This document shows, piece after piece, positions 2,232 to 57,369 of a stretch of 64,000 bases of DNA. Under the pieces are notes generated by a model. The model ran no database searches, was not told the DNA's origin, and saw only the letters and a list, made by a program, of their open reading frames with translations. The translations under genes were made by a program, and so were the position numbers. Source of the DNA: Natronomonas halophila (lineage in GTDB: Archaea; Halobacteriota; Halobacteria; Halobacteriales; Haloarculaceae); NCBI RefSeq assembly GCF_013391085.1, contig NZ_CP058334.1, positions 1,116,001 to 1,180,000 of the forward strand, in the 5' to 3' direction. Each line of letters starts with the position of its first letter. Within the stretch, counting starts at the first letter, position 1.

Positions 2232-2436
2232 AGCATCCGCCGAGGGGCGTTCGGAGAACGCCCCCGAGGCGGTTCCCGCTGGCGACCGAAGGGAGCCAGC
2301 GTAGCGCCGACTGACTAACGCTCAGCCGACCATAGGGAGGCTGAGCGGCTGGAGGGAGGCGCGCATATTTTCCCCAAGTTTTTGCCGAGAACCGGGGTCG
2401 CGGCAACGCCGCGACCCGCGTTCTCGTGCAAAAAGT
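2232..2436 (-). repeat. mosaic palindromic intergenic element, type A copy 1
   Basis: Read on the minus strand, it opens ACTTTTTGCACGAGAACG, forms a long hairpin (GGGTCGCG...CGCGACCC) and closes the arm with CGGCAAAAAC. A conserved GAAAATATGCGCGC follows, then variable hairpins, then GAACCGCCTCGG with a GGGGC/GCCCC hairpin, ending CGGCGGATGCT. The copy at 53659-53871 shares all these blocks while the hairpin interiors differ. Its T5 arm begins 3 bp after the TAG stop of the aspartoacylase-like gene, so it could terminate that transcript. Confidence 0.8.
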
Positions 2437-2439
2437 GGG

Positions 2440-9304: not shown

Positions 9305-9351
9305 CGCTCGTTGTCACTCCCTTTCACGCGGGCGCTTAAGTTCCTTCCGTC

Positions 9352-9500
9352 GAACTTTTTGCACGGCGAGCCTACGGCTCGCCGGCAAAAACTTCGATGA
9401 AAAAGACACTTCGACCCTCCCTCCGGTCGGGTCTCGGTCCCCCGCCTCGCTTCGCTCGGCGCGGTGAACCGCTCGCTCACTTCGTTCGCTCGCGGACGCT
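9352..9500 (+). repeat. mosaic palindromic intergenic element, type B copy 1
   Basis: The element begins GAACTTTTTGCACG. TTTTTGC (9356-9362) pairs with GCAAAAA (9385-9391) around a CGGCGAGCC/GGCTCGCCG stem. The type-B linker TTCGATGAAAAAGACAC follows, then a GACCC/GGGTC hairpin, a hairpin with loop TCGCTTCGCTC, and a last hairpin opened by GTGAACCGCTCG that ends CGCGGACGCT. It lies between the 5' end of the DUF373 gene and the 3' end of the lipoprotein gene. Confidence 0.8.
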
Positions 9501-11334: not shown

Positions 11335-11340
11335 AGGGAA

Positions 11341-11430
11341 CATCCGGCCGATCGTAGCGAGGCCGGCCTTTTTCATCAACGTTTTTCAAGGAGTGGTCGC
11401 GCGTAGCGCGACCCGACGCCGAAAAAGGTT
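11341..11430 (-). repeat. truncated mosaic palindromic element (type B-like)
   Basis: On the plus strand it runs from CATCCGGCC through CTTTTTCATCAACGTTTTT, a GGTCGCGCG/CGCGACC hairpin and GAAAAAGGTT. Compared with the full type-B copy in the same orientation at 53941-54088, it keeps the outer CATCCG end, the CTTTTTCATC linker and the T5/A5 framed hairpin, but lacks the two central hairpins. It lies directly between two copies of the radical SAM gene tail. Confidence 0.6.
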
Positions 11431-11431
11431 G

Positions 11432-11467
11432 GATGGTACTGTGGTCGAGCGGACGCCGCTGGCGTAA
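11432..11467 (+). pseudogene. remnant second copy of the radical SAM gene 3' end
   Basis: Translated in frame, this 36-base stretch reads DGTVVERTPLA and a stop, identical to the last 11 residues of the gene ending at 11334. The two DNA copies differ at 9 of 36 positions and every difference is synonymous or stop-to-stop. It therefore looks like the tail of a diverged homologue rather than a recent duplication. It has no start codon or body. Confidence 0.7.
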
Positions 11468-23902: not shown

Positions 23903-23967
23903 AACACCCACGTTTTGCACGGGGACGAGTCACACTTTATTGACGAACCGAGACAACGGCTTAACAA

Positions 23968-28313: not shown

Positions 28314-28369
28314 TTTCTGTCGACTATTTATAAGTAGAATTCCGTAACTGCGTGACTGCGAACAGCCGG

Positions 28370-28872
28370 AAAGCCCTCGGCCCGCTGGCGGTCGCTAAGC
28401 AGGATATCCTCGCTCGCTCCGCTCGCTCGGATAGGGCCTGCTTAGCGACTATATAAACGCCAGCGTGCCTCGCCCTTTCATTTCTCCAAGGACAGCACCG
28501 CACCTGCCCTTCCCCGGGTCGCGCGACGGCCTACGGCCGCCCGCGCTCCCGGCCAACTGACTTTATAAATGGCGCGCGCTGGTCGACCGCCGTGAGCGCC
28601 TCCGCGAACGGCGGTCAGGCCAGCAGCGCGCGAGGGACGACCGACTGAGCGCAAGCGAAGGAGGGAGTCGGCTGGGGAGGTGTGTGGCTGCGGTTTCCTG
28701 GCGGACTCGAAGGGCGAGGCTGGCGTGGCGGCCTGCGGCCGCCACGTTATAGGCGGGCGGCGGAGCCGCCCGCCCGGTGGACGAAGCACGGCGACGCAAG
28801 CACCGCAGGAGTGAGCAGAGCGAACGACGAGGAGCGCAGCGAGCCGCGCGAGTCGAGCCGGCCGAGGGCTTT
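28370..28872. repeat. palindrome-rich intergenic block bounded by 13-bp inverted repeats
   Basis: AAAGCCCTCGGCC (28370-28382) is matched perfectly by GGCCGAGGGCTTT (28860-28872). Inside are a 13-bp perfect stem (GTCGCTAAGCAGG at 28391-28403 with CCTGCTTAGCGAC at 28437-28449), a following TATA-like CTATATAAAC (28449-28458), a second TTTATAAAT (28562-28570), and GC-rich palindromes at ~28733-28749 (GTGGCGGC/GCCGCCAC) and ~28753-28775 (GGGCGGCGG/CCGCCC). No ORF is convincing. It fills the 604-bp gap between RNase Z and taw1 and could be a non-autonomous element or an RNA locus. Confidence 0.6.
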
Positions 28873-28917
28873 GGAGATGCAGCTATCGGGATACCGCAAT
28901 TCCAGAAAATCAGTCTC

Positions 28918-32527: not shown

Positions 32528-32800
32528 GAACTTTTTGCACGGGTCGGCTTCGGCCGTCTGCTCGCGGGCCGCAGGCCCGCTCGCATGGTCCGAGGGACCT
32601 TCGGTCCCTCGCTACCCGGCAAAAATCCATGCGAATCGCCGGAGGCGATTCGCTGGATGACGAGAGTCGCCGGCGGCGACTCTCGAACCACTTCGATGAA
32701 AAAGACACGGCGGCCCTCCCTACGGTCGGCCCTTGGTCCCGCGCCTCGCTAACGCTCGGCGCGGAGAACCGCTCGCGCCCTTCGGGCGCTCGCGGATGCT
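32528..32800 (+). repeat. mosaic palindromic intergenic element, type B copy 2 (expanded)
   Basis: The outer blocks match copies 1 and 3: GAACTTTTTGCACG, CGGCAAAAA, CTTCGATGAAAAAGACAC, a hairpin opened by CCGCGCC/GGCGCGG, then GAACCGCTCG and CGCGGATGCT. The first arm is enlarged by three extra hairpins (loops around GGCTTCGGCC, GGGCCGCAGGCCC and GGGACCTTCGGTCCC). Two further palindromes (CGAATCGCC...GGCGATTCG and GAGAGTCGCC...GGCGACTCTC) sit before the linker. It lies between argS and the tandem Usp gene. Confidence 0.8.
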
Positions 32801-53656: not shown

Positions 53657-53658
53657 CC

Positions 53659-53871
53659 ACTTTTTGCACGAGAACGCGGGTCGCGCCCGCTTCGGGGCGC
53701 GACCCCGGTTCTCGGCAAAAACGTGGTGAAAATATGCGCGCGCTCCTCCTGTCGCGGCGCCTGACGGCGCCGCGGTAGTCGTCGCGCGCTACGGCGACTC
53801 GACGGCTTCGCCGTCTCGTCGCCGCGAACCGCCTCGGGGGCCTTCTTTGAAGGCCCCCCTCGGCGGATGCT
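53659..53871 (+). repeat. mosaic palindromic intergenic element, type A copy 2
   Basis: It shares with copy 1 (2232-2436) the opening ACTTTTTGCACGAGAACG, the GGGTCGCG/CGCGACCC stem, CGGCAAAAAC, GAAAATATGCGCGC, GAACCGCCTCGG and the end CGGCGGATGCT. The interior hairpins are different sequences with their own pairing (GGCGCC region, GACGGCTTCGCCGTC). It starts two bases after the etfA TAG. Confidence 0.8.
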
Positions 53872-53940
53872 ATCTCCCATTCTATTATAAATCAAGCTTG
53901 ACCGAGGTCGTAGTACCCGCCTCAACCCCCAACAGGAGCA

Positions 53941-54088
53941 GCATCCGCGAGGCGCGCGAAGCGCGCCGAGCGGTTCACCGCACGAGCGAAGCGAGTGCGG
54001 GACCGAGACCCGACCGTAGGGAGGGTCGACGTGTCTTTTTCATCGAAGTTTTTGCCGGCGAGCCACAGGCTCGCCGTGCAAAAAGTTC
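53941..54088 (-). repeat. mosaic palindromic intergenic element, type B copy 3
   Basis: Read on the minus strand: GAACTTTTTGCACGGCGAGCC, loop, GGCTCGCCGGCAAAAAC, TTCGATGAAAAAGACAC, a GACCC/GGGTC hairpin, CCGCAC/GTGCGG around TCGCTTCGCTC, then GTGAACCGCTCG with a GCGCGC/GCGCGC hairpin and CGCGGATGCT. Its CGGATGCT end faces that of the type A element 69 bp away. The T5 arm points at the prenyl synthase promoter. Confidence 0.8.
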
Positions 54089-54128
54089 GATCCGTTAGGT
54101 ACTTGCGGGAAACAGACCTACCAGTTTT

Positions 54129-57159: not shown

Positions 57160-57369
57160 CGACCGCCGTTTCCTTTTTTGCCGCCCTCACGCCCTTAGCA
57201 GTGGATAGCAGCGCGGATTCGCGGCTCAGCGCACGGCCGCCGCCCACCGGAGGAGAACGCCGACTCCGAACCCGAGACTACCGAGAAGCAGGGCAGTCGG
57301 CCGTATTTCTTTTGTCCGCCGGTCGTGTCACGCCGTCTATGCGTCGTCGCGTCGGGAGGTGCGTCGTGG
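57160..57369. other. intergenic gap between gltA and next gene
   Basis: This 210-bp gap has a T-run (TTTCCTTTTTTG, ~57169-57180) right after gltA that could terminate transcription. A minus-strand stretch reads as a hydrophobic peptide without any usual start codon. Nothing else is supported. Confidence 0.4.

Follow-up and report, generated by a model that had tools for sequence, protein, structure and literature searches.

The window analysed here, a stretch of 64,000 nucleotides of the Natronomonas halophila chromosome, holds several copies of a repeat that, with a probability of about 0.6, belongs to a family of mobile hairpin elements, dispersed and non-autonomous, which are replaced and reshuffled at the edges of genes and probably act as terminators there. 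Empty sites, relics and the exchange of element types between species are the grounds for the mobile part of this reading, the proposal that a single strand is the form that matters comes from an asymmetry of mismatches, and the proposed role in termination comes from position together with a T5C motif.

Results

Copies in the window and on the chromosome

The five intact copies described in the earlier note are all present where it had placed them, and every block that it named was found, far above chance. In particular, GAACCGC…CGGAYGCT occurs 5 times in the window against 0.06 expected, CGGCAAAAA 6 times against 0.20, and the type B linker TTCGATGAAAAAGACAC 3 times against 0.06, with the type A linker exact in two window copies; a lone CGGCAAAAA at position 57175 is accompanied by none of the other blocks. 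The same note had counted one truncated copy and given it no place, and two candidates for it were found (Table 1), which brings the window total to five full copies and two degraded ones.

Over the whole 3.21-Mb chromosome (a single contig, C1, of which the window is 1116001-1180000), exact patterns gave 28 B linkers, 32 A linkers, 59 terminal blocks and 68 P1 hairpins, with reversed control patterns giving 0-1 matches genome-wide. Joining linker, terminal-block and P1 matches yields about 86 elements, a count that errs on the low side, since a survey by patterns and by separate stretches may overlook diverged copies that have no exact block, and the hundreds of copies predicted earlier were therefore too many. 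None of the approximately 86 elements lies inside a predicted gene, genes outside the window having been predicted with a codon-usage script that was checked against the window alone. The search of the complete genome and of related haloarchaea, proposed at the outset, shows that the copies are not unique to the window and that they keep fixed blocks. Types A and B both hold up, but there are more than two types, as a third linker, C (GAAAAATAGC…GCTAC, also seen as GAAAAATAGC…GCTACC), occurs in other species. At gathering score, Rfam had 0 matches in the window, the weak ones being chance hairpins, and we found no description of the element in a literature search outside whose scope lay ISfinder and subscription literature.

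Table 1. Coordinates of elements, element parts and relics in the window
Feature	Position	Strand	Remark
Type A element	2232..2439	-	CCCAC-T5 edge directly after stop codon (2440) of desuccinylase/aspartoacylase-like gene, minus strand
Type B element	9351..9500	+	P1 edge 49 bp from start codon of DUF373 gene (minus strand), just outside TTAAG promoter box
Short divergent copy CCAACCTTTTTC…GAAAAACGTTGATGAAAAAG…CGGATGTT	11339..11432	-	
Solo left-end relic AACACCCACGTTTTGCACGGGG	23903..23924	+	Right after stop codon
Type B element	32528..32800	+	Enlarged multi-hairpin P1; directly after arginyl-tRNA synthetase stop codon (32524)
Type A element	53657..53871	+	First base directly after etfA TAG (53656)
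P1 hairpin of type A copy	53657..53721	+	CCAC-TTTTTGC outer stem, bulged A, variable inner stem, GGCAAAAA
Type A linker GAAAATATGCGCGC	53728..53741	+	Minus strand …ATATTTTC, a T4C tract
P4 terminal hairpin GAACCGCC-TC…TC-GGCGGATGCT	53826..53871	+	
Core between convergent A and B elements	53872..53939		68 bp
Type B element	53940..54089	-	Faces idsA promoter; P1 edge ~40 bp from idsA start (54129)
Type B linker TTCGATGAAAAAGACAC	54031..54047	-	Other strand GTGTCTTTTTCATCGAA, a T5C tract

Anatomy

Elements are approximately 150-270 bp long and, read in element orientation (plus strand), begin with (C)CCAC in type A or CGAAC in type B, followed by TTTTTGC, a bulged A, the P1 hairpin and GGCAAAAA-C-GTGG or TTC. 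The linker comes next (GAAAATATGCGCGC in type A, GATGAAAAAGACAC in type B), and then P2, P3, G-GAACCGC, the P4 hairpin, GGATGCT and a loose tail. We infer a tail of about 25 nt, because, with the exception of one copy, the stop codon of the next gene is never nearer to GGATGCT than 22 bp, and these distances cluster at 22-35 bp. Many tails carry TTTATAA/TTTAAAT boxes 3-20 bp past GGATGCT, among them tails that do not face a gene start, and these boxes are possible promoters into the minus strand.

The conserved ends and swapped or resized interiors that had been noticed in the window are borne out: the T5/A5 outer stem, the A or B linker and GAACCGC…GGATGCT are fixed, and the stems vary with their pairing kept. 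The outer partners of P2, read by eye, change together (TATGCGCGC/GCGCGCTA, TAGC/GCTA, GAC/GTC). The two elements between etfA and idsA form one convergent A-B pair, of which the genome has 11, with a core of 67-71 bp in 8 of them and with outer ends that are inverted repeats (ACTTTTTGCAC), and the convergent A-core-B pair may itself be a unit. Several of the cores have TTCYTGTATC and GGCTACCTCGGCA motifs in common. Elsewhere in the window, a hairpin-rich convergent intergene of about 600 bp (28314-28917) contains the element hairpin modules GCGTGGCGGC…GCCGCCACGTTATA and GACTGAGCGC…GCGAAGGAG; element ends are absent from it, and it has no Rfam match.

Position at gene edges and terminator motifs

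P1 faces the 3' end of a gene in 66 of the 86 elements (p ~7e-7), at a median distance of 5 bp from the stop codon and at most 8 bp in 48 of the 66. As the point of reference was the AC before T5, the true edge of the element is even nearer. Such flush placement is unexpected from random insertion, given that element-free intergenes in the window have a median length of 86 bp. Where P1 faces a start codon instead (20 copies), the distance is 32-54 bp in 16/20 and 40-54 bp in 15/20, which would put these edges just outside the core promoter if the mRNAs are leaderless, as they presumably are. Distances on the P4 side are broad, so that this edge is loose. As for the orientation of the flanking genes, 36/86 elements lie in convergent and 4/86 in divergent intergenes, compared with 15/64 and 14/64 for the window as a whole. 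Apart from stop codons, no target-site consensus was seen upstream of P1.

The idea that the element is a terminator, raised earlier as one of several, gains support from these positions and from its T tracts. Namely, on the minus strand linker B reads TCTTTTTC (T5C) and linker A ATATTTTC (T4C), both being of the T-stretch-then-C form of haloarchaeal terminator motifs, and on the plus strand the P1 edge, T5G, begins with T5 after the stop codon. In Haloferax, T5C gives 95% termination (PMC7237163). Resident copies probably supply transcription termination at their sites, as the native spacer DNA is gone.

A strand-specific fold

Covariation shows that the pairing of P1 is kept: in 22 distinct 38-nt type B P1 sequences, drawn from several species, pairing holds in 98.6% of cells, and two-sided changes number 40, versus 14.7±2.6 in shuffles. 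What is more, the mismatches depend on the strand. In element orientation, the 2x2 internal mismatches of the 86 own elements are TC/TC in 150 cases and GA/GA in 1 (p ~1e-43). The 275 kb around them has a ratio of 32:23, and 58 elements taken from other genomes have one of 111:2. Triloops in the own elements are TNC in 105 cases and GNA in 19. The minus strand consequently has tandem 5'-GA/GA pairs and mostly GNA loops. Tandem GA/GA and GNA-loop motifs form stable sheared G·A structures in both DNA and RNA. In the four copies tested the minus strand folds better than the plus strand, by 2-3 kcal/mol as DNA and by approximately 7-12 kcal/mol as RNA; in the copy at 9351 neither strand is clearly better than shuffled sequence. 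P1 and P2 hairpins genome-wide also show a recurring minus-strand internal loop, GACTGA/GAAGGAG, that is, a GA pair, 2 bp and a GA pair, which gives tandem GA pairs every 4 positions.

The asymmetry of mismatches has no reason in a duplex palindrome or cruciform site, and recognition of a single strand would explain it. A cruciform or nucleoid site, as the earlier note had suggested, is therefore not the best reading. Since it is the minus strand that folds with tandem G·A pairs, the selected form is likely a single strand, be it RNA or single-stranded DNA; the folding of the minus strand would also fit RNA.

Gain, loss and exchange between species

Empty sites, sought in relatives, were found in sister species with both flanks conserved. 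Between etfA and idsA, where a 433-bp A-core-B pair lies in this genome, three relatives (G002, G003, G016) have 39 bp and a fourth (G004) has 41 bp, both genes being conserved, and G009 and G012 have a type A element with different hairpins. For the window copy at 2232, 6 sister genomes have an empty site and G007 a filled one, and for the copy at 9351 the site is empty in all 7 sister genomes compared. Elsewhere on the chromosome, the loci at 2248k and 2123k have empty counterparts with flanking homology, and at 2248k just ~3-12 bp separate the two genes in G002, G003, G004 and G016. Some congeneric species have almost no elements. That said, some of the "empty" sites could be losses, since the species compared share just ~80-90% identity. 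A target duplication was also looked for, and none was seen in these comparisons, which are between species and not strains, at etfA-idsA, 1118k (2232), 1125k (9351), 2248k or 2123k. The spacer DNA of relatives is gone at etfA-idsA and at 2232 (1118k); elsewhere the relatives' spacer is just ~10 bp.

Types are also exchanged at one and the same site: the locus at 348k is type A here and type B in G002, G003 and G016, the one at 1202k is type B here and type A in four others, and the one at 2552k is occupied in seven genomes by differing types (A-core-B as against A or B). Relics of the A-type left end stand directly before 5/21 B copies that face a gene 3' end and before 0/54 other copies, with a background of 1.1%. 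All six B copies 17-22 bp from a stop codon have an A-like left end in front, for example CCCACGTTTTACAC; five of the six pass the scan, the sixth having an extra base. Together with the solo left end in the window (Table 1), the exchange of types and these A-like left ends point to copies having been overwritten by other copies. In G007, the counterpart of our 1202k site (L403) has a duplicated left end, ACACCCACTTTTTAGCAC followed directly by CCACTTTTTGCAC, namely an A element behind the relic of another A.

The wider family

Outside the genus, the exact P1 pattern occurs in 4 genomes, chiefly in G037 (12 copies). At the ends of thermosome genes in 30 genomes of the family, an element is present in 13/30, from seven genera (by eye), and fits the strict consensus in 6. 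It has the form CCCAC-TTTT(T)-hairpin-AAAAA-C-KTGGGG-AAAA, several examples ending in GCGGATGCT or a near form, and often lies directly after the stop codon, with P1 cores that differ. In G037, which belongs to another genus, match coordinates put a P1 hairpin directly after the stop of each of two thermosome genes (C12, C15). The P1 matches outside the genus and the relatives at thermosome ends indicate that the family has a greater age and range than would be guessed from the window. The persistence of elements at the thermosome site speaks for a benefit of some copies to the host, and vertical retention over long times, for a host function, would likewise account for sites that are occupied in several species and for the copies at thermosome genes.

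Search for a mobilising enzyme

For want of a transposase nearby, the element had been proposed to be either non-autonomous or a host-maintained structure, and no associated transposase was found. This genome has one Y1 protein (132 aa), which sits beside a TnpB and is thus IS605, and the termini of this TnpA+TnpB element and of two further TnpB loci share no end or linker with the family, which speaks against an IS605/Y1 origin. Across 20 genomes, Y1 transposase count does not correlate with element count: the element-rich G009-G011, in assemblies that are 72-88% complete, have no Y1 gene, and the element-free G001, G005 and G006 have 3-5. An autonomous copy was sought between distant convergent elements (2053-2055k and 2381-2383k), where translations, read by eye, revealed ordinary host genes alone. 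In plasmid and phage collections the window pair had no match, one weak partial match to a relative's element being found on a Halorientalis plasmid. The 17 P1-pattern matches in viral contigs are due to chance, none being palindromic. A B-linker scan of genome contigs gave 79 matches, of which most are chance 17-mers in bacteria and those of interest are from Natronomonas.

Discussion

One close parallel is with the PATEs of Haloquadratum walsbyi (PMC3119063), which are likewise haloarchaeal, non-coding and present in many copies, have near-terminal palindromes and no single-copy terminal inverted repeat, and show presence or absence among strains as well as a "switch" of repeats at one position. 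In single copies of the present elements, too, P1 and P4 lie near the ends (CCAC/CGAAC-T5 on one side, GGATGCT and the tail on the other) and terminal inverted repeats are lacking, but no IS605-related termini were found for them within this genome. Unlike PATEs, they have a multi-hairpin body with strand-biased tandem GA mismatches, lie flush with stop codons or promoters, and exchange two or more linker types at one site. SMR-A of Haloquadratum is also short and mobile, with an enzyme that is unknown, and inserts into the near-terminal palindromes of other elements (PMC3119063), much as B copies here lie in the A left end; SMR-A, however, has prominent inverted terminal repeats, a length of ~110 bp and high identity, whereas hairpin sequences here diverge widely. 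With REP, REPIN and BIME sequences and their TnpA-REP (RAYT) (PMC8266576, PMC3733652) the family has in common imperfect palindromes with a conserved mismatch, an intergenic location often at gene 3' ends, and convergent dimers; mismatch and strand matter for the recognition of REPs as single-stranded DNA and may do so here. Yet REPs, whose phyla in PMC3733652 are bacterial, are 20-40 nt long with a GTAG or CGTC tag (PMC3733652), and the edges here are CCAC/CGAAC and GGATGCT, with neither tag beside the palindrome.

Integron attC sites have variable stems and conserved ends, are folded on one strand and come right after stop codons. The present elements may work in the same way; unlike attC sites, the copies are scattered singly between syntenic genes, and sister genomes lack the element alone, with no gene cassette missing. 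In the respects given above the family works like PATE and REP elements, yet it lacks IS605-related termini (within this genome), which define PATEs, the GTAG/CGTC tag of REPs, and the inverted termini with target duplication of MITEs. It appears to be a family of small mobile elements that has not been described before.

Could the copies instead be host-maintained terminators or boundary elements, that is, a structured cassette selected at gene ends and spread by recombination between copies, with no transposase? Such an account would explain why copies sit at stop codons and promoter edges, why they carry T5 and T4C/T5C tracts in a haloarchaeon, why they are over-represented in convergent and under-represented in divergent intergenes, and why 13/30 genomes have kept an element at the thermosome site. 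Nevertheless, the closest relatives lack the element at the same sites, congeneric species have almost none, P4 faces a gene start in 30 copies, and relics of overwritten copies exist, so we consider this account somewhat unlikely. An antisense small-RNA family would need the minus strand to be transcribed from a TATA-like box beyond P4, to fold as P4-P3-P2 and to stop at the T4C/T5C linker. The better folding of minus-strand RNA, the boxes in several tails without a gene start and the T tract that ends the linker are in line with it, but about half of the convergent copies have no TATA-like box, its distance is variable, a single RNA should not be so variable in its stems and size, and no Rfam family corresponds, all of which makes it distinctly unlikely.

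A PATE in the strict sense would have arisen by deletion from an IS200/IS605-type transposon and would share its near-terminal palindromes. Copies that singly have near-terminal palindromes and no terminal inverted repeats, too short to code and numerous in a haloarchaeon, with no visible target duplication and with the switching at one site reported in Haloquadratum (PMC3119063), match that description, but they have neither end nor linker in common with the IS605 element and TnpB loci of this genome, and Y1 genes are distributed among relatives as described above, so that we hold it to be quite improbable. We give very little credence to a classical MITE moved by a DDE transposase, with the convergent A-core-B pair and its T5GCAC terminal inverted repeats as the unit. 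The 11 pairs, 8 of them with a core of 67-71 bp, and their inverted outer ends are what one would expect of it. Most copies, however, are single and have no inverted repeat, inspected empty sites show no duplication, and strand asymmetry of mismatches is unexpected for double-strand recognition.

For the family of mobile hairpin elements that we favour, the following course of events can be proposed. An enzyme acting like a Y1/HUH transposase would recognise the minus strand in its folded, single-stranded DNA form and would insert or replace copies. On the P1 side, dispensable DNA would be lost, at insertion or through later erosion, as far as the nearest stop codon or core promoter. The T5 at the P1 edge would then terminate the gene running in, and the hairpins followed by the T4C/T5C of the linker would terminate transcripts from the P4 side. 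That these elements make up a distinct haloarchaeal class, which has a folded single strand of tandem-GA hairpins, overwrites older copies, erodes spacer to stop codons or core promoters, takes over termination and is mobilised by a not-yet-recognised enzyme, is a tentative proposal that we put forward with some doubt.

Small non-coding mobile repeats are common, and their choice of site and their effect there are rarely clear. Here, sequence alone offers three handles, namely the strand that is read, the fixed edge, and gene ends taken over since related species split, and the claim can be tested in cultivated Natronomonas species, of which N. gomsonensis has copies. If true, it would point to an unknown single-strand transposition enzyme, and it would mean that in archaea a mobile element can act as a replaceable transcription terminator.
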